From Richelia sp. SL_2_1 (GTDB lineage: Bacteria; Cyanobacteriota; Cyanobacteriia; Cyanobacteriales; Nostocaceae): 39,678 bases of DNA. A program made the position numbers and the translations under genes. The notes under the pieces are model-generated. The model saw only the letters and a program-made list of their open reading frames with translations, did not search any database and was not told the origin of the DNA. The DNA lies in NCBI GenBank assembly GCA_012033205.1, contig JAAUSO010000053.1, positions 1-39,678 on the forward strand, in the 5' to 3' direction. Numbering within the stretch: position 1 is the stretch's first letter; each line of letters starts with the position of its first letter. Of this stretch, positions 6,378 through 25,386 are shown piece by piece.

Positions 6378-6444
6378 TTTCAGTTAACCATTGTAACATA
6401 ATTTTTGGCGTTGCTAATTAAAAGTATCAATAAAAATGTTTTAA

Positions 6445-7037: not shown

Positions 7038-7892
7038 ATGTCGCTAGATTTTAATGAGAATCTTGTTGAAGAAGCTGTTGGTAATTTCAGCCCAGCAATC
7101 TCTACTGCTGCTACCAAAGATTTACCTTTAAATAATAACGTATGTTTGATTGAAGGTGAACAAGCAATACCAGTAAATCAACTTCCTCAATCTTGGCAAG
7201 ATATTTGTGCAGCTACTTCTAATACAAAGCTTTCCGATCCCCAAGCATATGTGAAGATGGCACAATTATTTCTTTACAAAATGTCTAATGGCGATGTAGA
7301 TTTATTTAATGAATCGAAATCAGAACATCTCAAGCCCGCTTTTTGTGAAATTTTTGGTAGTCTTGCTTGGGAAGCACTTGAGTTTTATGGTGAAGACTTT
7401 AAAGTTGATAAATATCCTAATTTTGACTTGATTGAAAAGGAAATTTCTTCAGAAGAAGATTACGACGAACGCAAAAAGATAGTAGAAATAGGTAAGGCTC
7501 TTTTTCAAGAGTTCGGATACGACTTACCCGCATCTTTTTATCACGTACATTTAGCACCTATTTACAGAGAAGAAGTCTCAGAAATTCGTCCGTTGAGATT
7601 TTCAGAGCCAGATAAAAACCATGCTCGTGCGTGGGATGCTTCTTTACACGGTCAAAAAGTATTTCCTATTCAATTAACCGTGCAAAGTATATCTTCTAAA
7701 CACGGATTTTTCCAAGAGCATGGTTGTGGATGTAACCACGCGATGACGAGAGTTGGTGCTACAGATACCGCTTTTGATTATCAGATCCGTCCTTCCATGC
7801 GAACAACGTGGATTAGAGATTTTATTTGGACAATATGGTATGAGTATGCATTTTTTAAATTTACTCCCGTAACTCGTTTCTTAATTGGTTAG
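7038..7892 (+). CDS. Conserved-looking protein of unknown function under a Zur box
   Basis: A 284-residue soluble-looking protein that I do not recognise. There is no signal peptide and no clear membrane segment, apart from an aromatic-rich C-terminus (WIRDFIWTIWYEYAFFKF) that could contact a membrane or partner. A motif HGFFQEHGCGCNHAMTR near residues 221-240 has two cysteines and several histidines close together and could bind a metal. Several H and D/E residues also occur in SFYHVHLAPIYREE. The start ATG has a weak AGGA site nine bases upstream. It stands alone as a single-gene unit, with a Zur-type box upstream and a hairpin terminator downstream, so it is very likely produced under zinc deficiency. 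A zinc-scavenging, chaperone or metal-sparing enzyme role are all possible; none is shown. Confidence 0.8.
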   Translation: MSLDFNENLVEEAVGNFSPAISTAATKDLPLNNNVCLIEGEQAIPVNQLPQSWQDICAATSNTKLSDPQAYVKMAQLFLYKMSNGDVDLFNESKSEHLKPAFCEIFGSLAWEALEFYGEDFKVDKYPNFDLIEKEISSEEDYDERKKIVEIGKALFQEFGYDLPASFYHVHLAPIYREEVSEIRPLRFSEPDKNHARAWDASLHGQKVFPIQLTVQSISSKHGFFQEHGCGCNHAMTRVGATDTAFDYQIRPSMRTTWIRDFIWTIWYEYAFFKFTPVTRFLIG

Positions 7893-8314: not shown

Positions 8315-8575
8315 ATGTTTAATTCTTCAAAATCGGCTTATCCCAGCCATTCTCAAATGGTAAAAAGCCTTTTTTCAGAAGCATATAAAACTGCAAAGCA
8401 AGGCTTGTGCGGCGATAGAGTTTTAGCAGATAATAAGACTGTAGAAGACAGGCTACAAATATGTTCAACTTGCGAAAAGTTTAATGCAAAAGAGAAACGT
8501 TGTACTGTTTGTGGATGCTTTATGATGGTTAAAGCTAATCTGGAAGCTTCTAATTGTCCGGATGATAAATGGTAA
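8315..8575 (+). CDS. Small zinc-ribbon-like protein (DUF6171-like)
   Basis: An 86-residue protein with cysteines at 50, 53, 63, 66, 68 and 81, in the arrangement CSTC, CTVCGC and a final NCPDDKW. The paired CxxC motifs with CGC and a C-terminal CP...W resemble small phage and bacterial zinc-binding proteins of the DUF6171 type (moderate confidence). The N-terminal half is helical and basic. The Zur-like palindrome just upstream suggests it is made when zinc is scarce, which is unexpected for a protein that probably binds zinc itself. It could be a zinc carrier or a small regulator. It converges on the flavoprotein gene, whose end lies 25 bases away on the other strand. Confidence 0.8.
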   Translation: MFNSSKSAYPSHSQMVKSLFSEAYKTAKQGLCGDRVLADNKTVEDRLQICSTCEKFNAKEKRCTVCGCFMMVKANLEASNCPDDKW

Positions 8576-8599: not shown

Positions 8600-9838
8600 T
8601 TAAGCTGACTTAGCTTGATTCTGAACAATATTAGATTTAATAATGGCTTTAAGCATTTTCTCACTAGCCATTCTTGCACCTGATAAATTTCGGGCTGTCG
8701 GCCCGATTTGCAAAGCCGCTAAACCACCCATAATAAATAACGAACAACCATGCCAACCCAGGTTATCATCTAAAATAGGTAACCCATTTACTACAGGAAT
8801 CGGATATGCCCCGATAATTTCCTTCAATAAGGGTTCGGAGTTGACATCGAAATAGGTTCCAGTAGATAACCAAATGCGATCGCATTCATATTTTCCATCA
8901 GGAAATTTCACCAACCAATGATTATCTATCCATTGGGCCTTAACTACCTGAGTATTTTCAAGGATTCTCAACTTACCACCACGTACTTGTTGCCGTAGTT
9001 TTATTCCCATTGCAGGTGTCATCGAGCCACCGTTTCTTGCTTGCTGAATCATTGCAAAGCGTTTCGCAAAATCTGGTTCTGCAAAAAATCCTCTGAGATA
9101 TTTTGGTCCTAACCAACCAGCATCCGCATCAAATATTTTTTCTTGCATCTTTCGTCGGATAGATATTTGTACTTCTGCTCCGCGAGATATTGCACCTACC
9201 GCTAAATGTCCGCTTGTCAGCCCTCCACCAATAATCAATACTCTTTCACCAGCTAAATGTAGATTGCGTAAATCTATTGCTTGGGAATGAATAAGCCTGT
9301 CTTGGGGATAGTTTGCATTAATCTGATTTACCCAATCAGGTATTTGTAGTTGACTGCTACCAGTTGCTAATACTACCCGACGAGCCATAATCGATTTTCC
9401 CGAATCCAACCACAGACGAAACCGGGAAAGTAAAGGATTACGTAATGGTTGGATTCTAATTACCTTTTCACTTACAACTATATTCTCTAAATCCCAACGG
9501 CGAATTATATCCTGAGAAAAATTATTAAACAGTCTAGTTCCTGGTAAATCGTAGGGAGGGAAAAATTCATTCCCGCGAGACTCTGCGAATTTACGTAATG
9601 CAAAAGGATTGGGATCGCAATGGTGAACCGCAGGGGAACGTAAATGCGGTATTTCTAATGCTGCAAACTGTTGCTCCCATTGACTCATCCATTTCCCACT
9701 AGGGTCAAATACTGTAATTCTAGGACGGATCTTTTGCCGTTTCTGTAGCAAATGAGTAACTAAAGTAAGAGCGTGAGGTCCAGCACCAATAATTGCTAAG
9801 TCAATTCTTCTCAAAAGGTGTGGTATGTTACTTTCCAT
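8600..9838 (-). CDS. FAD/NAD(P)-binding oxidoreductase, N-hydroxylase-like
   Basis: Flavoprotein of 412 residues related to the SidA/IucD/YdhS group (NAD_binding_9 type). It shows an N-terminal FAD-binding motif IIGAGPHAL (residues 16-24), the W-x-x-Q-F segment after it, and a second dinucleotide fold around VLIIGGGLTSGHLA near residue 210. Members of this wider family include lysine and ornithine N-hydroxylases of siderophore synthesis, but the substrate here cannot be read from sequence. A Zur box ends 15 bases upstream of its start, in the short gap after znuB, so it can be transcribed from its own zinc-controlled promoter as well as from znuCB read-through. A role in making or modifying a metal chelator is a reasonable inference from position alone. 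Confidence 0.8.
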   Translation of the reverse strand: MESNIPHLLRRIDLAIIGAGPHALTLVTHLLQKRQKIRPRITVFDPSGKWMSQWEQQFAALEIPHLRSPAVHHCDPNPFALRKFAESRGNEFFPPYDLPGTRLFNNFSQDIIRRWDLENIVVSEKVIRIQPLRNPLLSRFRLWLDSGKSIMARRVVLATGSSQLQIPDWVNQINANYPQDRLIHSQAIDLRNLHLAGERVLIIGGGLTSGHLAVGAISRGAEVQISIRRKMQEKIFDADAGWLGPKYLRGFFAEPDFAKRFAMIQQARNGGSMTPAMGIKLRQQVRGGKLRILENTQVVKAQWIDNHWLVKFPDGKYECDRIWLSTGTYFDVNSEPLLKEIIGAYPIPVVNGLPILDDNLGWHGCSLFIMGGLAALQIGPTARNLSGARMASEKMLKAIIKSNIVQNQAKSA

Positions 9839-11614: not shown

Positions 11615-11639
11615 TTATATTGCATTGTTGTTATAAGTG

Positions 11640-12722
11640 ATGTTTAGAAAATTACCTCTTAATAGCATCTGCTTGCAGCAGCGCTGGGTTCCAATGGGAC
11701 AGGCTTGCGTGAATGCTGTCGCGACATTAACATTTGCTATTGGCTTAATTAGCTGCGGTGAAACCCCATCCGTTAATTCCAACACTGAGACCACAGAAAA
11801 TACTGCTACGAACACTAGCACCACAACCGGAGAACGTCCTTTAGTAGTGGCAACTACAAGCATACTTTGTGACTTAACCAAACAAGTTGCGGCTCAAACC
11901 GTTGACTTGAAATGTTTGGTAGGTGCAGGAGCAGACCCCCATACCTATCAGCCGAAACCAGAAGACCGTAAAGCCATCGAGCAGGCTAATTTGGTTTTGT
12001 ACGGTGGTTATAATTTTGAACCCAGCATTATTAAGTTAGTTCAAGCTAGCACTAATACAGCTCCAAAAGTTGCGGTACATGAAGTTGCAGTACCCAAACC
12101 GATTATTGGGGAAGAACACGACCACGACCATGGGGGAGAACACTCTGAGGAAGAAAAACACTCAGAAGAAAAAGCTCCAGACCCCCACGTATGGCATAAT
12201 CCTCAAAATGGGGTTCAGATGGTGGAGGCTATTCGTAGTAATTTAGAGAAAGTTGCTCCGAACAATGCAGAGTTATATGCAGCCAATACCCAAAAAGTAA
12301 CCGAGGAAATCAAACAAATAGATAGCTGGATTAAACAAAATATAGCGACAATACCTGCTAATCAGCGTAAATTAGTCACCACTCACGATGCTTTAGGTTA
12401 CTATACCCAAGCTTATAACATTAATTATGAAGGTGCGATAGAAGGTTTGAGTACTGAAGCTGAGCCAACAGCAGCGAGAATTGCTGAACTTTCAAAAGAA
12501 ATTAAACAAGAGAAAGTACCGACAATTTTTGCTGAGAGTACCCATAGTTCTAAACTGATTGAAAGAGTTGCTCAAGAAGCGAATGTGAAAGTTTCTCCAG
12601 AAAAACTATATGCTGATGGGTTGGGGGAACCGGGAACGGATGCCGATACTTATCAAAAAATGTTGATTGCTAATACTAAAGCTATTGTTGATGGTTTGGG
12701 AGGTAAATACACGGCTTTCTAA
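11640..12722 (+). CDS. znuA: Zinc ABC transporter substrate-binding lipoprotein ZnuA
   Basis: Periplasmic zinc-binding protein (cluster A-I) that feeds ZnuBC. ATG at 11640 is preferred over the adjacent GTG at 11637. The N-terminus is long, with a lipobox GLISC and the lipid-attachment cysteine at about residue 39; a shorter start at the ATG 11694 would give a more usual signal. Zinc-ligand regions are all visible: GADPHTYQP (His near 101), DPHVWHNP (His near 183), TTHDALGYY and the late FAESTHSSK. Between the first two is the charged loop typical of zinc-specific members, rich in His, Asp and Glu (residues 158-179, starting EEHDHDHGGEH). 360 residues. Divergent from znuC, with a Zur box just upstream. 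Confidence 0.95.
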   Translation: MFRKLPLNSICLQQRWVPMGQACVNAVATLTFAIGLISCGETPSVNSNTETTENTATNTSTTTGERPLVVATTSILCDLTKQVAAQTVDLKCLVGAGADPHTYQPKPEDRKAIEQANLVLYGGYNFEPSIIKLVQASTNTAPKVAVHEVAVPKPIIGEEHDHDHGGEHSEEEKHSEEKAPDPHVWHNPQNGVQMVEAIRSNLEKVAPNNAELYAANTQKVTEEIKQIDSWIKQNIATIPANQRKLVTTHDALGYYTQAYNINYEGAIEGLSTEAEPTAARIAELSKEIKQEKVPTIFAESTHSSKLIERVAQEANVKVSPEKLYADGLGEPGTDADTYQKMLIANTKAIVDGLGGKYTAF

Positions 12723-12785
12723 TAATATTTGCAAGGCGGTATATTGTCGTTTTCCAATATCTGTTTTATTCGTAATCAAGCAATT

Positions 12786-13068
12786 AATAGTTAATACAGT
12801 TTCACCATTAGACAATATATCCACTCTTGCAGATACTCCCTTCAGTGCCGATTCCTATCGTATCCAAGCATCATTAGGAATCAGTAAAAACTTGGTATTA
12901 GGTGGTTGGGCTGGCTATACTAATGCTCGTAATTTAACTACATCAGCGGCTTTTCCAGACCGTGGAGAAGCAGAAACATGGAACTGGGCTGTAACTTTAG
13001 GATTACCAGATTTGGGTAAAAAAGGTAACTTGGCCCCCATTGAAACCGACAATGATTGCTCGGTGTAG
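12786..13068 (+). pseudogene. Fragment of an OprB/SLH-type porin
   Basis: The reading frame contains ADSYRIQASLGISKN, LVLGGWAGYTNARNL and ETWNWAVTLGLPDLG, which match a conserved stretch late in cyanobacterial 'iron uptake porins' (SLH plus OprB family), outer-membrane proteins of about 550 residues. Both the front part and the C-terminal barrel strands are missing; the frame ends early at 13068. It is open upstream into the end of znuA, but only the part from about 12790 resembles a porin. Some porins of this family are zinc-responsive in cyanobacteria, so a once-functional zinc porin downstream of znuA is plausible. Confidence 0.65.
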
Positions 13069-13079
13069 CAGTATTAGTA

Positions 13080-14579
13080 TTAATCTGTTAGCAATCTAGC
13101 TTTACGAAAAATAAATGTAATTATAGTTTCTTGTCGAGAAATAATATCTGCTGTCACTTCCATTCCCGGCTGAAGGGGATACTTTTGAGAATCTTTTTCT
13201 ATGTATGTTTTTATCGGTTCGATACTTACTTCATAGTAAGGTGTGACCGTACTATTGTCATTGGTTAGTGTTGCAATGGTATCGGCTGATATGGCTCTCA
13301 CAGCACCACTAAGCGTACCGTAATCGGGGTATGGATAAGAAGAAATGCGTAATTCTACTTTACCTTGAGTACAATCTTTGACTAATAAATTATTGCAAAC
13401 TTGTACTTTACTAATATCTTGAGCAGCAACGCGGGCTTTGATAATTATCGGCGCTTTGCTCGGTGCTATTTGAGCTACAGCATCCCCAGCACTCACCACT
13501 TGACCGGAGTTTCGTAGTTCAAGTTTCAAGATAGTTCCGGCTTCTGTTGTCCGAATAATGGTTTTTTCCAATTCATTTTCAATTTTTTTTAGCTCTTTTT
13601 GAGCGTTGTAAATTTGGTTTTGCAGTTCGGCTTGCTGTTGCAGTAAACTTTCTTTTTCTTGCTTTAACTTTGCCAAACTTACTACTTGTGTGGCACTCTC
13701 TTGAGCAATTTTCTCCTTTGCAATTGATATTACAGCATTGCTAGGGTTTAACATTGCTAATGCTCGCTTTTGTCTAGCATAAGTTGCTGCGATCGCTTTT
13801 TGTTGTCTTTGTACCACTTGTCTGTAACTTTCCACAGTCGCTTTTTGAGACTCCAAAACTTGCTGTTGTTGCGTCACTGCTAACTGTATTTCTTCTAATT
13901 GATTTTGAGAAATCGAGCCAGATTGAGCTATGGCTTGGTAACGATTGCGTTTGGCGATCGCAGCTTGTAATGCGGCTTGGGTGGCTTTTAATTGTGCTTG
14001 AGTTGACTTCAACTCTGCTTGAGCTTTTTGCAATTCATCTTGGGCAATTTTTATATTGGCTGTGGCTTCTTGCACATCGCTAGTTGCAGTTTCTTGCTTT
14101 TGCTCATATTCCTGTTGTGTATTCACAAGTTCTGCATTCGCTGAAGCTACAGCACGATTAGAACGATTAGTCTCTGCGGCTGTTTGACTGTCTAAGGTAC
14201 GAATTTGGGCATTTAGTTGCATTAATTGCTGTTGGTTTTGTTGGATATTTCCCAAAATTTGACTTTTTTTGGTTTGTAACTCCCAAGCATTAAGAGTGGC
14301 GATCGCATCTCCTGATTTGACTTCCTGATTTTCTTTGACTGCAATCCGTTCTACTGTTCCGGCGGTAGTTGCTTGGACAATACGCACTTCCCCCGATGGG
14401 CGAACTGCACCGCTAGTTCTCACTGTGACCGGATATTGAATCACAGCCGCTAGCAGCATTCCCACCGCCACGGTTGCAAATAAAAATAACCCCCCGCAAG
14501 TTTCCCAAGCACTGATGGGAGGAAGAAATTCGTTACTTTGTACTGGACGCAGGGAGTCGGGGTTACTTTCATTAAGCAT
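13080..14579 (-). CDS. HlyD-family periplasmic adaptor (type I / bacteriocin export)
   Basis: Membrane-fusion protein that links an inner-membrane ABC exporter to the outer membrane. It has a short cytoplasmic N-terminus, one membrane segment (about residues 30-50, FLFATVAVGMLLAAVIQYPV), a first half lipoyl/barrel segment (VQATTAGTVERIAVKENQEV), a very long Gln/Ala/Glu-rich coiled coil (about 105-345), the second half motif (RTTEAGTILKLELRNSGQVV), and a C-terminal beta domain ending near PLQPGMEVTADIISRQETII, which is typical of HlyD. 499 residues, normal for cyanobacterial adaptors paired with C39-peptidase ABC exporters. It is divergent from the lanthipeptide precursor 245 bases away, and the Zur-like box in that gap might serve both. 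The matching ABC exporter is only a fragment (15310-16005). Confidence 0.9.
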   Translation of the reverse strand: MLNESNPDSLRPVQSNEFLPPISAWETCGGLFLFATVAVGMLLAAVIQYPVTVRTSGAVRPSGEVRIVQATTAGTVERIAVKENQEVKSGDAIATLNAWELQTKKSQILGNIQQNQQQLMQLNAQIRTLDSQTAAETNRSNRAVASANAELVNTQQEYEQKQETATSDVQEATANIKIAQDELQKAQAELKSTQAQLKATQAALQAAIAKRNRYQAIAQSGSISQNQLEEIQLAVTQQQQVLESQKATVESYRQVVQRQQKAIAATYARQKRALAMLNPSNAVISIAKEKIAQESATQVVSLAKLKQEKESLLQQQAELQNQIYNAQKELKKIENELEKTIIRTTEAGTILKLELRNSGQVVSAGDAVAQIAPSKAPIIIKARVAAQDISKVQVCNNLLVKDCTQGKVELRISSYPYPDYGTLSGAVRAISADTIATLTNDNSTVTPYYEVSIEPIKTYIEKDSQKYPLQPGMEVTADIISRQETIITFIFRKARLLTD

Positions 14580-14746: not shown

Positions 14747-14780
14747 TGATAATCATAATCATTCTTATCATCTGTATAAT
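14747..14780 (+). promoter_or_regulatory. Zur-like box overlapping the promoter of the lanthipeptide precursor
   Basis: TGATAATCATAATCA (14747-14761) has one mismatch to the Zur consensus. A perfect -10 element TATAAT follows at 14775-14780, so the box covers the -35 region, an ideal place for repression. The precursor ATG is 44 bases beyond the -10. Confidence 0.7.
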
Positions 14781-14824
14781 CTTGACGGTTATTAAGTAAG
14801 CTTTTTTACTTGGAGGTAAATACC

Positions 14825-15052
14825 ATGTCGAATTTGGATATCGTCCGTGCTTGGAAAGATGAAGAGTATCGTGCTAGTCTCAGCCCCGAGCAAAAGGCAC
14901 AACTACCAGAAAACCCAGCTGGGTTAATTGAACTGACAAATGACGATATGTCTTCGTTAGGAGGTGGACTTGTGGCCGACCCAACCCATACCAAAACTTG
15001 TAAACATTGTTGCCCGAAAAACTATGAGACTAGTATTGACTTAGCCAGCTAA
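14825..15052 (+). CDS. Mersacidin/lichenicidin-type lanthipeptide precursor
   Basis: A 75-residue RiPP precursor. The start at ATG 14825 has GGAGG eight bases upstream. The leader (MSNLDIVRAWKDEEYRASLS, then PEQKAQLPENPAGLIELTND) closely follows the type-2 lantibiotic leader of the mersacidin/lichenicidin family and ends in a double-glycine site, SSLGGG. The core that remains, about 27-28 residues, has cysteines at 59, 62 and 63, histidines at 55 and 61, and Thr/Ser residues before and after (THTKTCKHCCPKNYETS). A LanM synthetase would dehydrate Thr/Ser and form thioether rings; none is present here. A double-glycine leader is removed by C39-peptidase ABC exporters, and a HlyD adaptor is adjacent. 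The upstream Zur-like box suggests production in zinc deficiency. A weak stem with T5 near 15065-15116 may end the transcript. Confidence 0.85.
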   Translation: MSNLDIVRAWKDEEYRASLSPEQKAQLPENPAGLIELTNDDMSSLGGGLVADPTHTKTCKHCCPKNYETSIDLAS

Positions 15053-15127: not shown

Positions 15128-15307
15128 TTACTTTAGTGGTTTGGTGTAATTTCGTTTACGCTTAACTACTAAGCTAGTTCCCAAAACACCAAAGGCGAAT
15201 AAACTCCCAAATGTTGTGGTTGGTTCAGGTACTTTCGTTGCCACAAACCCATGCTTGACACCCTCAGCATCAAAGTAATAACCAGCAATCTTCCCAGAAT
15301 CATTTAA
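15128..15307 (-). pseudogene. C-terminal fragment of a PEP-CTERM protein
   Basis: Read on the minus strand this gives about 59 residues: LNDSGKIAGYYFDAEGVKHG (a HAF-type repeat), then a PEP-CTERM tail with VPEPTTT, a hydrophobic helix FGSLFAFGVLGTSLVV and the basic end KRKRNY. PEP-CTERM tails direct exported proteins to exosortase-type sorting. The 5' part is missing: the coding sequence stops at about 15307, exactly where the ABC-exporter fragment of the other strand begins. A deletion or rearrangement therefore joined the two broken genes. Confidence 0.7.
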
Positions 15308-15309
15308 CC

Positions 15310-16005
15310 TCTCCGTTTTTAATTCAAGTTCTTACCGATGATGTCTTGATTCGCCGCGATCGCCAATTGTTAACTAGTGTAATCATAGCTGTTTTAACAT
15401 TCAACTTCATTAGTAGCGGGCTGCGATATGTGCAATCAAATTTAATTGCCCATTTTGCTCAACGTTTAGAATTAGATATGATTTTAGAATTTGGTAGAAC
15501 CATTTTACGTTTACCACTTCCCTATTATGAAGCTCGTCGCAGTGGTGAAGTTGTCAGCAGAGTCCGCGATATTCAAGAAATCAATCAGTTAATTTCGCAA
15601 GTTGGGGTAACTTTACCAAGTCAATTTTTTATTGCCATAGTTTCCCTAGGTTTTATGTGCTTTTATAGTTGGAAACTCACCGCAGTCCCAATCGTAATAG
15701 CTGGAGTACTAGCAGTAGCGACTCTAGGTTTCTTACCAAGTATCCGCAAAAAAATTCAAAATGTTTTAGTAATAGGTAGTGAAAATCAAGCTGTATTAGT
15801 AGAAACTTTTAAAGGTGCGATCGTTCTTAAAACTACTAACTCGGCTTCCTATTTTTGGGAAGAATTACAAAGTCGTTATGGACAACTTGCCCATGCTAGT
15901 TTTCGGGCAACGCAAATGGCAATTATCAATAATAACTTTTCCAGTTTCTTATTTAATACTGGGAAAATTGCTTTGCTGTGGTTTGGGAGTTTATTAGTCA
16001 TCTAA
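15310..16005 (+). pseudogene. Fragment of a peptidase-containing (C39) ABC exporter: membrane domain only
   Basis: The frame is open from about 15310 (SPFLIQVLTDDVLIRRDRQL) and reads as the transmembrane domain of bacteriocin/type I secretion ABC exporters: FISSGLRYVQSNLIAHFAQR, then LPLPYYEARRSGEVVSRVRD, the coupling region, and helices up to KIALLWFGSLLVI. The N-terminal C39 peptidase is missing because of the junction at about 15308. The nucleotide-binding domain is missing because a TAA comes early, at 16003. About 230 of roughly 700-1000 residues remain, so it cannot export anything alone. It is likely the former partner of the HlyD protein at 13080-14579 and would have cleaved double-glycine leaders such as that of the nearby precursor. 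Confidence 0.8.
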
Positions 16006-16060
16006 ATTTTTTAAATCCTTGAGATGCAATGTATTTAAACTGTATCCGTATACCCAATGC

Positions 16061-16405: not shown

Positions 16406-16420
16406 CGATAATCATTATCA
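16406..16420. promoter_or_regulatory. Zur box (14 of 15 positions)
   Basis: CGATAATCATTATCA, one mismatch from the consensus. It lies 148 bases from the minus-strand zinc-finger gene and 608 bases from the TonB receptor at 17029, so its target is not certain. Between 16421 and 17028 I see no clear gene: on the minus strand about 16680-16800 reads as a short start-less frame with alternating Val/Asn (NDNVNVNVSVIVDVSV). Confidence 0.7.
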
Positions 16421-17028: not shown

Positions 17029-19197
17029 ATGAGAATTATTTTTAATTGCCAATCGGGAATACAGTTTATAGTATCAATTATGACTGTATTGGGTATAGTG
17101 TCAGGGAATGATAGCGTTACAGCACAACAAATAGAGCAAATCTCAGAATTTCCCCAGCATCAAGGTACAGCAAAGGATTTAGAAATAATTCCAGAATTAC
17201 CACCTGAAAATACTTCCATTACCAATAATCACACGAATGTGATCGGCGAAGCCCTGCCGCAGGCAATCGCGCAAAATCAACCTGTAAACCAAGAAGCCGA
17301 TATAGAACTGACAGTCACAGGAGAAATATTAGATCAGCCAGTTTTTACACCGTTTCGTCGTGAAGGAAAGGTAAGAGATGCGACTCGTCCTGTATACGTG
17401 ATTAACCGTAAGGAAATTGAAACTCAAGGAGCGCGTACTGTTAAAGAAGCGCTGAGATTTGTTCCTGGGATATTACCCGATGGGACTGTAGGAACAGAAA
17501 TCGGAGGTTTGAGCGGTCAATTTATTCGTGGTTCCAATACCGGACAAGTATTAATATTACTCAATGGACGACCAGTTAATAATCTTGGAAGTGGTGGTTT
17601 CGACTTGTCAGAAATTACTACTGATATTGTCGAAAGAATTGAAGTTCTTCCTGGTGGAGGTTCTACCCTCTATGGTTCCGATGCGATTGGAGGGACAATC
17701 AATATTATTACTCGTCAGCCCACAAAAGATATTACCACCACCGCTCAACTCAGATTTGGTAGCTATGATTTGAACGAACAAAGCATTCAAAATAGCGGTA
17801 AACAGAGTAATGTCTCTTGGTTACTAGGGTATAACCGTACTCGTGCTAACAACAATTTTGATTATTCCATTCCTGAAGTTGACTTTGATGGAACTAGGGA
17901 AAATGCCGATGTACTCTACAATAATCTCAATTTACAGGTTAATGCAGAGTTAGGTAAACGCCAAACTTTAAGTTTCAATACGATTTATCTGGCAAAAGAT
18001 CAAGGGGTTCCCGGTGGTGTTGCAATTCCTCAAATTTCTCAAGCTGCTTTTAACTCACTTACCGATAATAATCGTAAGTACACCGACCAAGTTCTCACAG
18101 ATTTGACCTGGAACGCAAAATTAGGAAAAGCAGACGATTCCTTATTAACAGCTAGAGTTTATCTAGATTTCCTCAATACTCGCTTTGATAACCGCACGGG
18201 AGATATTAGCACCCATCAACAATTTGATAACAACCAAAAATCCTTGGGTTTCCAAATACAGCATAACTGGCAAATTGCTGAAAATCATAATATTGCCTAT
18301 GGTTTTGACTATCGCAATGTCAGCGCTGAAAATGTGACTCGTAAGCTCGCAGATGGAACAGAAACAGAGAATTACGATGATAGTATCGGACAAGGAGCGA
18401 TATTTGCCAAATATCTAGTTGATGTGAATCCAGAGGTTCGATTAAACTTCGGATTGCGTCAAGATTTCAATAGTTTGATAAACGGTTCGGTCACTTCTCC
18501 AGCGGTAGGTGTGCGTTGGAATTTAGCAGAAACGACTACCGTTCGAGCTAACTATATCCGTAATTTCCGAGTTCCTACCCTATTTAACTTATTTAGTAAT
18601 TCTCCCTTTGCACAAGGGAATCCAGATTTAAAACCAGAAAGAGGTAATAGTTTTGACATAGGTATTGATCAACAATTAGGGGATATAGGTTTACTACGTT
18701 TTACTTTCTTCAACAACACCATATCCGATAATATTGCCTATGATAATATAAATTTTACCTATGAAAATATTGGTAAAGTTCGGACTACTGGGGTGGAACT
18801 TGCTTTAAACTTGCAATTAGCAAAAAATTTCTACTTTTCTGGTAACTATACTGCAAATGACCCTAGAATTGTTGAGAGTTCTAATCCCGCAGAAGTTGAT
18901 AAAGAATTAAGATTTGCTGGAGCTGATAGTATAAATTTAGGACTTTCCTACGAAAATCGTCAAGGTTGGTATGCAGGAATTTTGATGCACTCTTTGGGTA
19001 GCTATCCCACGAACAACATTAATACAGAATCTTTAGCAGGTTATACAACTTTTGATTTTAAATTACGAGTTCCCGTAGGTGAGAACCTCGCGGTTAATGG
19101 TAGTGTAGAAAATATTTTTGATCGGAGATTCCAGTTATTCCCCGGCTACCCCGATGCAGGTAGAATTATTCAAGTTGGCATGAATTATAAGTTTTAA
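17029..19197 (+). CDS. TonB-dependent receptor (BtuB/Cir type)
   Basis: Outer-membrane receptor of 722 residues without an AMIN domain. The start ATG is preceded by GAGG. The signal peptide is hydrophobic with an end near VTAQQ. After a linker (about residues 35-95) comes a TonB-box-like ELTVTGEI, then the plug: PVYVINRKEIETQGARTVKE, VPGILPDG, a GQFIRGS motif, and ERIEVLPGGGSTLYGSDAIG, all conserved. The barrel follows and ends GRIIQVGMNYKF with a terminal Phe. This class imports cobalamin, catecholates or other chelates. Downstream in the same direction are a ferredoxin-like protein, a FecB/BtuF-like binding protein and a cobalamin riboswitch, so cobalamin or a metal chelate is the best guess. 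A Nostoc-type palindromic repeat is inserted in frame in the linker. Confidence 0.92.
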   Translation: MRIIFNCQSGIQFIVSIMTVLGIVSGNDSVTAQQIEQISEFPQHQGTAKDLEIIPELPPENTSITNNHTNVIGEALPQAIAQNQPVNQEADIELTVTGEILDQPVFTPFRREGKVRDATRPVYVINRKEIETQGARTVKEALRFVPGILPDGTVGTEIGGLSGQFIRGSNTGQVLILLNGRPVNNLGSGGFDLSEITTDIVERIEVLPGGGSTLYGSDAIGGTINIITRQPTKDITTTAQLRFGSYDLNEQSIQNSGKQSNVSWLLGYNRTRANNNFDYSIPEVDFDGTRENADVLYNNLNLQVNAELGKRQTLSFNTIYLAKDQGVPGGVAIPQISQAAFNSLTDNNRKYTDQVLTDLTWNAKLGKADDSLLTARVYLDFLNTRFDNRTGDISTHQQFDNNQKSLGFQIQHNWQIAENHNIAYGFDYRNVSAENVTRKLADGTETENYDDSIGQGAIFAKYLVDVNPEVRLNFGLRQDFNSLINGSVTSPAVGVRWNLAETTTVRANYIRNFRVPTLFNLFSNSPFAQGNPDLKPERGNSFDIGIDQQLGDIGLLRFTFFNNTISDNIAYDNINFTYENIGKVRTTGVELALNLQLAKNFYFSGNYTANDPRIVESSNPAEVDKELRFAGADSINLGLSYENRQGWYAGILMHSLGSYPTNNINTESLAGYTTFDFKLRVPVGENLAVNGSVENIFDRRFQLFPGYPDAGRIIQVGMNYKF
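17241..17270. repeat. Palindromic repeat inserted in frame in the TonB receptor gene
   Basis: A GC-rich 30-base segment beginning GATCGGCGAAGCCC and ending GCAGGCAATCGC, unlike the AT-rich surroundings. Repeats of this form (GGCTTCGCC/CTGCGG core) are dispersed in Nostoc-like genomes. It encodes IGEALPQAIA in the linker between signal peptide and plug, where extra residues are tolerated. Confidence 0.55.
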
Positions 19198-24994: not shown

Positions 24995-25386
24995 GTGAAA
25001 AAGTTACTCGCTAATTTACCAAGAAAACCCTTAGCTTTTATTTCTCTAGGTTCACTGTTAATGACTGGAAAAATAGCTGTAGCTAACGAAACGGCTAAGA
25101 AAGTACAACCAGTAGAACGTCCAGATGCTAACGTTACACCAGTTTCCGGAGAAAGCCAAAAGGCTTGTGTGAGACATTCAAAATTCGGTACATTTTTCTG
25201 TGCAAATGCGAACCAATTATCTCATCTAAAAAAGGTAATCCACAAATTGATGCTGCCGATGAAAATAATCAGGATGCGTTACTTGGTGTTACAGATGAAG
25301 AAAGTGATGCTGCTGTAAATATGTTTGGTTGCGATTGTGTTGCATCGATTAACTGTTTGCGTAAGCTGCGAAATAGTCTACCGTAA
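24995..25386 (+). pseudogene. Secreted Cys-rich small protein, frameshifted
   Basis: A GTG start with TAGGA before it opens a frame with a signal peptide (KPLAFISLGSLLMTGKIAVA, then NE). The frame continues to ACVRHSKFGTFF. From there the next frame gives the better reading: CKCEPIISSKKGNPQIDAAD, then GVTDEESDAAVNMFGCDC and SINCLRKLRNSLP with a stop at 25384. The switch maps to the T run near 25193-25197, where a one-base indel would restore a single protein of about 130 residues with six or seven cysteines. I do not recognise the family. A periplasmic metal- or redox-related role would fit the next gene, a Rieske protein. It could be a real mutation or a sequencing error. Confidence 0.6.

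Follow-up and report, generated by a model that had tools for sequence, protein, structure and literature searches.

A lanthipeptide precursor behind a Zur-type operator in Richelia sp. SL_2_1 and its relatives in an apparent family of zinc-linked clusters

Can a lanthipeptide belong to a bacterial response to zinc starvation? The question is raised by a small gene of Richelia sp. SL_2_1, found on a contig of 39,678 nucleotides that was analysed over its whole length and is called the window here. The gene (14825-15052) runs from an ATG at 14825 to a stop codon at 15050-15052 and encodes a product of 75 amino acids. An earlier note, made from the letters of the DNA, had described a mersacidin/lichenicidin-type leader with a GG site, a core with three Cys and two His, and a near-perfect Zur box 13 bases before a TATAAT. 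All three descriptions were borne out. The NCBIfam model TIGR03898 (mersacidin/lichenicidin family type 2 lantibiotic) matches residues 5-48 of the precursor along its full profile (1-44 of 44) at 9.6e-20, and the score of 70.3 bits, above the curated cut-off of 23.5, places the peptide in this family; a Pfam search of the precursor returned nothing at E ≤ 0.01. The core contains three Cys and two His, and the peptide combines a GG-type cleavage site with Ser/Thr and Cys in the core, as expected of class II. The elements of the gene are:

14747..14761, + strand: Zur-type operator TGATAATCATAATCA, one mismatch to TGATAATNATTATCA, from a motif scan; the same type of box is kept upstream of relatives
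14775..14780, + strand: TATAAT, candidate -10 element, from the sequence; a TATAAT also follows the box in loci L074-L078
14825..14968, + strand: precursor leader with GG at its end, from TIGR03898 and alignment
14969..15052, + strand: core LVADPTHTKTCKHCCPKNYETSIDLAS and stop codon, from the sequence; HTKTC(K/R)HCC is kept in L074-L078

The box ends 13 bases before the TATAAT and so spans the expected -35 region, which puts a Zur-type 15-bp palindrome over the candidate promoter of the precursor. In the window, 16 boxes with at most two mismatches to TGATAATNATTATCA were found, while 30 shuffles gave 0.43 on average and the reversed motif, used as a control, had no site in the window at one or two mismatches. 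Three of the 16 are intragenic (2067, 20402 and 22627); the remaining ones precede, among others, genes for a TonB receptor, a COG0523 protein, an FAD protein, ZnuC, ZnuA, HemB and ThrS. A scan of the 7.55-Mb genome that allowed up to one mismatch gave 19 sites, and the reversed motif gave 14, so single sites elsewhere in the genome are often due to chance. The 39.7-kb contig makes up 0.5% of the genome yet holds seven of the 19 (binomial 5e-12). Ten of the 12 sites outside the contig were looked at, C234 and C292 being left out. Two of these are at a znuC-znuB pair, two fall between a second copy of znuA and the second FAD gene, one (C140) is 60 nt before a FUR-family gene, three are within open reading frames and two have no downstream gene within 240 nt. 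Among these ten, the only genes with a site at most 100 nt upstream are thus the second znuA, the neighbouring FAD gene, znuC-znuB and the FUR-family gene. These locations suggest that in Richelia sp. SL_2_1 the motif marks mainly zinc genes. The genome contains three Fur-family regulators (PF01475), any of which is a candidate Zur. A chance AT-rich match as the origin of the box is ruled out by the shuffles, the reversed control in the window, the enrichment in the contig and the conservation described below.

Relatives of the precursor are encoded at E ≤ 1e-4 in 42 of 388 genomes of the order, Richelia sp. SL_2_1 included, and in two of the eight genomes of the genus, the second being one other member. 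A genome scan, limited to the best 80 of the 118 that encode a relative, left 78 loci; its patterns were drawn from group A peptides, and group A is therefore over-represented among the loci. Membership of group A was decided by the leader motif D[ML]S[SA], which follows D or E and precedes the GG; neither box nor core enters this rule. In the resulting set of 79 loci it comprises 23, including the window, and group B consists of the other 56 mersacidin-type loci, 32 of them cyanobacterial. Among the best 80 of 118 relatives and the window, a box with at most two mismatches lies within 300 nt at 22 of the 23 loci of group A, whose leader motif was picked after the boxes had been seen; by the same measure no such box was found at any of the 56 group B loci (0/32 cyanobacterial) among the best 80 of 118 relatives. 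As a background value, a box lies within 300 nt in 6 of 88 unmatched genes of group A loci. A wider genome set, in which the box was scored for group A only and the group B comparison remains that of the 79 loci, yielded 33 distinct peptides of group A. In 30 of them the box departs from the motif at no more than two positions; in the remaining three it has three mismatches, and one of these is a plasmid copy that adjoins a zinc transporter. Locus L100, whose peptide is cut off, is included in the box counts and excluded from the counts of intact cores, and locus L177 is outside all locus and LanM counts. Related loci are non-independent observations. Zur control of the group A clusters is very likely on these comparisons, and we consider the existence of a Zur-controlled lanthipeptide family highly probable. 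The window precursor and its relatives would then belong to an apparently unreported family of zinc-linked lanthipeptide clusters.

In L074-L079 the gene order is HlyD, precursor, HAF-repeat protein and LanM, followed in L075-L079 by LanT as a separate gene. Most other loci show LanM, LanT, precursor and HlyD, many with a porin gene divergent from LanM; in L085 the precursor comes first. LanM of the relatives matches TIGR03897 at 2.7e-294 and has the domains DUF4135 and LANC_like, and the full-length LanT homologue has C39, transmembrane and ATPase domains. The HAF-repeat gene sits between precursor and LanM, and its Okeania homologue matches the TIGR02913 HAF repeat. The box also recurs at these other genes: it lies within 300 nt of 16 of 22 entries for LanM, 8 of 13 for the porin and four of the six HAF-repeat genes of L074-L079, where the counts are of gene entries, a split gene contributing more than one entry and a box shared by divergent genes being scored for each.

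Does the gene in the window operate within such a cluster? Its surroundings contain the following features:

11637..12722, + strand: ZnuA zinc-binding protein (PF01297, 1.6e-86); boxes 11542 and 11600 lie between znuA and the divergent znuC
12667..13068, + strand: possible SLH/OprB porin remnant, tentative (BLASTP cluster with c4, no Pfam match); a porin flanks LanM in relatives
13080..14579, - strand: HlyD-type membrane fusion protein of 499 aa, open throughout (cluster gene c2; TIGR01843 at 3e-47, under the model cut-off); adjoins the precursor in relatives
15139..15306, - strand: 3' remnant of a HAF-repeat protein gene (blastn to L074 and L075)
15307..16001, + strand: internal fragment of a LanT-type transporter (PF00664 only; 93% DNA identity to L075 9079-9777)
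15999..16039, + strand: remnant of the 3' end of that LanT-type transporter gene (blastn to L075 10670-10710)
17029..19197, + strand: TonB-dependent receptor, candidate uptake receptor (PF00593, PF07715); a homologue adjoins the intact cluster in L077
20211..21401, + strand: FecB/BtuF-like periplasmic binding protein, candidate receptor partner (weak IsdE/BtuF matches under the cut-off); adjoins the cluster in L075 and L077

A genome search for a LanM gene, which the earlier note had proposed, was run with TIGR03897: in the Richelia sp. SL_2_1 assembly, which is 98.3% complete, nothing was found at E ≤ 1, and a search with LANC_like gave no match either. As a positive control, the TIGR03897 search found LanM in all five chosen relatives that hold the cluster. 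At the window locus the transporter is represented by a transmembrane fragment only, the open reading frame 15346-16005 (219 aa) having neither the C39 peptidase nor the ATPase. The window was compared with Nostoc sp. S4 (L075). The stretch 4197-9078 of L075, which holds the 5' part of the HAF-repeat gene, the whole of LanM and the 5' part of the transporter gene, is absent from the window at about 15304, and a second deletion has removed L075 9778-10669, the ATPase end of the transporter, at about 16000. The remaining parts have diverged little in protein sequence: compared with L075, the precursor shows 11 synonymous and four non-synonymous codon changes and the transporter fragment 34 and 12. 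These mostly synonymous changes make the break look recent. With no LanM in a 98.3%-complete assembly and a transporter reduced to a fragment, the copy would probably yield no mature product via its own pathway. A window gene at work within its own cluster is ruled out, LanM not having been found and the transporter being broken; we consider it highly probable that this copy is broken, and it is probably a relic of recent origin in which operator, precursor and HlyD gene have stayed intact. What stands of the earlier reading is the class II lanthipeptide-type precursor and the Zur-type box, which recurs upstream of cyanobacterial homologues; the working pathway in Richelia sp. SL_2_1 does not.

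Two other altered copies were seen among the relatives. In Nostoc sp. CHAB 5715 (L074 2909-7678) LanM and transporter form a single open frame of 1589 aa, apparently without part of the transporter. In Trichormus sp. NMC-1 (L100 10001-10132) the precursor is cut off right after the leader and is accompanied by LanM fragments; this decayed copy has retained its box.

The earlier note had also pointed to zinc genes near the precursor. They are there, and several box-bearing homologues sit among zinc genes as well. Zinc-type genes occur within about 10 kb at nine of the 23 group A loci, window included, versus two of the 56 others; two of the nine, L101 and L103, have only the phosphoesterase/GTPase genes c5/c8 or the FAD gene, whose zinc link is drawn from the present comparison. 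The other 14 group A loci have no zinc-type gene within about 10 kb, and many contigs are short. Recurring neighbours are znuABC, thrS, folE and COG0523 genes. A zinc ABC transporter adjoins the cluster in L085 and in the intact plasmid copy of Dolichospermum sp. DET69 (L178), folE, COG0523 and thrS genes adjoin it in L076, and a TonB receptor with FecB-, FecCD- and ATPase-type genes adjoins it in L077. Receptor and/or FecB/FecCD-type genes adjoin the cluster at three loci (window, L075 and L077), and L099 has a partial FecCD match. No TonB receptor is found beside most clusters and none is common to all. In the window itself, the box closest to the TonB-dependent receptor gene is at 16406, about 600 bases upstream, and the FecB/BtuF-like gene has no box within 300 nt. 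Uptake is mildly favoured by the FecB-type and/or receptor genes that adjoin the cluster at the window, L075 and L077 loci.

A clear zinc island is on plasmid A of Trichormus variabilis ATCC 29413 (L177), with an intact cluster of genes for porin (AVA_RS27215), LanM (AVA_RS27210), LanT, precursor (AVA_RS27200) and HlyD. Within 12 kb after this cluster lie genes for two phosphoesterases, GTP-binding proteins, HisI, a DUF1636 protein, ThrS, HemB and a zinc-binding protein. At this locus five boxes have two mismatches or fewer, where shuffles gave 0.2; one without mismatch lies between porin and LanM and one with a single mismatch precedes the precursor, the two being at 6397-6411 and 11883-11897 of L177. 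The intact clusters of L177 and L178 are both on plasmids typed as conjugative. Carriage on such plasmids may explain the patchy distribution of the clusters.

Which properties do the core peptides share? In the wider set, His is present in all 32 intact group A cores, and 31 of them carry three or more Cys. Among the 79 loci, 22 of the 23 in group A have a core with His, the exception being the cut-off L100, compared with 13 of the 56 others. The core types include HTKTC(K/R/N)HCC, CTTCGNPLHTPIIKC, CTTCTGGTGFTHTCNWSC, CTCGSSQCSMPWHH, HPTVRPTTCSCCGSA and GHPVCHTNCSHC. CTxTxEC is the core motif of the lipid II-binding, mersacidin-like lantibiotics. It was found in none of the 32 intact group A cores, an absence that weighs mildly against a mersacidin-like antibiotic.

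The LanM sequences were compared using 20 rows of group A and 44 of group B, and nine rows added from the wider genome set brought group A to 29 distinct sequences; the window, L091, L100 and L110 are the group A loci without an assessable LanM. In a tree of 63 rows, the group A enzymes lie on one side of a branch with an SH-aLRT support of 94 (19 group A rows from eight families, in which near relatives are non-independent). The same branch is supported at 93/99 in a tree of 39 rows, for which 20 of the 44 group B rows were taken and the fused LanM-LanT frame of L074 was trimmed to its first 1090 residues. We placed the zinc ligands of the cyclase domain by alignment to LicM2, CylM and NisC; in NisC they are Cys284, Cys330 and His331 (PMC7296275). 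All 42 group B LanMs that have the domain keep the ligands, as Cys followed by Cys-His (40) or Cys-Cys (2). In group A, 14 of the 29 keep all three and 15 are without the first and the third. The first is replaced by Ser (14) or Asn (1), the third by Asn (12), Ser (2) or Gln (1), and two of the 15 are also without the middle Cys. The nine ligand losers in the 39-row tree form one subclade (100/100), and the loss may therefore be a single event.

Such a loss might be taken as a sign of a decaying domain, an explanation that is ruled out by the rest of the sequence. The His of GF(S/A)HG is retained in all 15 losers and 34 of 44 near-invariant cyclase columns are unaltered in every one of them. 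Changes outside the ligands are Tyr to Phe/Trp and Pro to Leu, each in 14 of the 15, and changes of an Asp and of a Leu, each in five. The median ratio of LanC to dehydratase divergence is alike in losers (1.01), keepers (1.09) and group B (1.00), a comparison that dropped the group B rows L122 and L130, in which the domain is missing, and L136, which keeps the ligands. In the N-terminal and dehydratase part, 18 of the 23 near-invariant polar columns scanned show no change in any of the 20 rows of group A. One ligand-less cyclase domain was modelled with AlphaFold2 (pLDDT 91.5); the model has LicM2 as its best match (TM 0.82), and the cyclase fold is thus predicted to persist.

Changes of the ligands in NisC lead to inactive NisA (PMC7296275), and zinc-ligand mutants of lacticin 481 synthetase keep dehydration while cyclisation is impaired, according to a title in a reference list. 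A LanM branch without these ligands would mature its peptides without zinc or leave thiols free: the enzymes may cyclise without the metal, or may leave dehydrated residues beside free thiols. A ribosomal zincophore could be imagined on this basis, in which a Zur-controlled class II lanthipeptide is served in one branch by a zinc-free LanM, which would allow the peptide to be produced in zinc scarcity or would keep its thiols available for zinc binding. We regard this more specific proposal as doubtful.

Genes for TfuA and/or YcaO, resembling the proteins of McrA-glycine thioamidation, occur near several clusters (L036 881-3608; L083, L084, L101 and L103; L070). Four of these clusters have a zinc-less LanM and one, L070, is a group B locus; thioamidation of a lanthipeptide is possible there.

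The explanation that we prefer is that a class II lanthipeptide system under Zur control serves the acquisition of zinc, with the window gene as its surviving precursor; taken as a whole, it has slightly the better of the argument. In zinc shortage, Zur would leave the boxes that precede the precursor gene and usually also LanM, and precursor, LanM and often the porin would then be made. LanM would modify the core with its His and Cys, and the C39-peptidase transporter together with HlyD would cleave at the GG and export the product. The exported peptide would most likely bind zinc or otherwise aid its acquisition, like a zincophore. In the genome of the window, the two deletions appear to have taken LanM and most of the transporter. 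The regulatory part of this mechanism has strong comparative evidence and the export part draws on knowledge of the family; an export route encoded with the product is seen in the relatives only, being broken in the window. For the role in zinc acquisition by itself we would put the chances a little short of even. Thioether formation uses up Cys thiols, so zinc binding by the mature peptide should be poor, which counts against a zinc role, and the intact zinc site in 14 of the 29 group A LanMs and the lack of a receptor common to all clusters speak against the preferred explanation too.

The same genes might instead make a bacteriocin under Zur control, released in zinc shortage to inhibit neighbours and thereby free zinc or remove competitors. 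LanM, LanT and HlyD are the usual layout of a bacteriocin cluster, and behind their conserved leader the cores vary strongly from one subgroup to another, as in bacteriocin families. This reading is nevertheless unlikely, given that CTxTxEC is missing from all 32 intact cores, that no immunity gene of the LanFEG or LanI type was conspicuous in the cluster gene tables, and that a metal role is suggested by the His present in all intact cores and by the association with zinc genes. A signal of zinc shortage or a surface peptide (a morphogen or a component of sheath or filament), acting in neither zinc transport nor killing, would suit the ends of the cores: in 27 cores counted at plus-strand loci only, the last residue is Ala or Ser in 20 and an acidic residue occurs in the last ten in 24. 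It would also suit the HAF-repeat protein of L074-L079, which in L075 and L076 has a VPEP tail that we read as PEP-CTERM-like and whose genes are boxed in four of six cases, and there is a precedent in SapB, a lantibiotic-like morphogenetic peptide (PMC2843593). Such a role needs neither cores rich in Cys and His nor neighbouring zinc genes, and we hold it to be improbable, somewhat more so than the bacteriocin.

Two further possibilities concern the boxes and the window copy. Fur and Zur boxes resemble each other in having a 7-1-7 palindrome in common, and the boxes could be Fur sites of an iron-related system, as might be suspected from the flanking porin, which matches NF033921 'iron uptake porin', and from the C140 box before a FUR-family gene. 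That the motif precedes zinc genes in Richelia sp. SL_2_1 and that the clusters recur with zinc genes make this most improbable; in Anabaena, moreover, 15-bp Zur sites overlap promoters and candidate Zur sites occur in the furA promoter (PMC10957091). Finally, the window precursor might still work, with a LanM missing from the assembly, with an unrelated enzyme and C39 transporter, or as an unmodified Cys/His peptide inside the cell. Its intact sequence and operator and the mostly synonymous codon changes (11 versus 4, and 34 versus 12 in the transporter fragment) would fit. Against it stand the searches of the 98.3%-complete assembly, empty at E ≤ 1 for LanM and for LANC_like where the same LanM model succeeded in five of five chosen relatives, and the synonymous excess in the fragment itself, which shows that the break may simply be recent; we judge a working precursor very unlikely.

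How does the preferred zinc-acquisition system compare with known ones? With the mersacidin/lichenicidin class II lanthipeptides (TIGR03898 with TIGR03897) it shares the leader and the GG site and, in the relatives, LanM and the C39 transporter. Group A differs in its Zur-type operators, its His in every intact core, its frequent zinc neighbourhood, its lack of CTxTxEC and a LanM branch without two or three of the zinc ligands, and the window's genome differs in that LanM was not found there. Coelibactin and EDDS are zincophores under Zur control that are made by other enzymes. The proposed logic, a zinc-scavenging small molecule under Zur, is alike, whereas the group A product is ribosomal, is made via LanM, LanT and HlyD, and has zinc binding only as a proposed property. 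Zincophores under Zur are mentioned in PMC10957091, which also describes the Zur regulon of Anabaena PCC 7120 with ZnuA, the TonB receptors Alr3242 and Alr4028-4029, and ZepA. Cyanobacterial Zur regulons there have the same type of 15-bp operator over the promoter and similar types of neighbouring genes; no lanthipeptide is mentioned in the passages considered, and with a cluster for a ribosomal peptide such regulons would gain a target of a new type. The cyclase domain of class III LanKC is naturally without the conserved zinc-coordinating residues (PMC7296275), as in the group A branch that lost them. The group A enzymes, however, are class II LanMs (TIGR03897; DUF4135 and LANC_like), the other half of their clade keeps the ligands, and a zinc-type operator is present.

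No report of a Zur-controlled lanthipeptide was found in the open-access literature, most subscription papers being outside the scope of the search, and searches with the peptide strings returned no paper. The words 'zinc' and 'Zur' are absent from the main text of PMC3140520 and PMC3951391, and 'lantibiotic' is absent from PMC2770081. Class II lanthipeptides and the Zur regulon are each of a known kind; their combination appears unreported. If the preferred reading is true, ribosomally made, post-translationally modified peptides join the bacterial zinc-starvation response, and class II lanthipeptides gain a candidate role other than antibiosis. Natural class II synthetases without the zinc site would allow the need for zinc in the cyclase to be tested directly, and the intact cluster in the zinc island of Trichormus variabilis ATCC 29413, a culture-collection strain, makes the regulation open to experiment.

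Several other genes were observed with these boxes or near the clusters. An FAD/NAD(P)-binding protein (window 8600-9838, - strand; also L167 3036-4277) matches PF13454, more weakly a Lys/Orn monooxygenase, and has a box with one mismatch; a second copy adjoins the second znuA in the same genome, and homologues lie within the lanthipeptide clusters of L103 and L105. A 284-aa protein without NCBIfam or Pfam match (7038-7892, + strand, box 6994 upstream) and an 86-aa DUF6171 protein (8315-8575, + strand, box 8247 upstream) are candidate zinc-response genes. Small proteins with the pattern KFGC(T/D)C..C are encoded near the cluster of Nostoc sp. S4 (L075 867-1622), and a similar FGCDC open reading frame lies at 24995-25386 of the window; these may be small Cys-rich zinc-response proteins.
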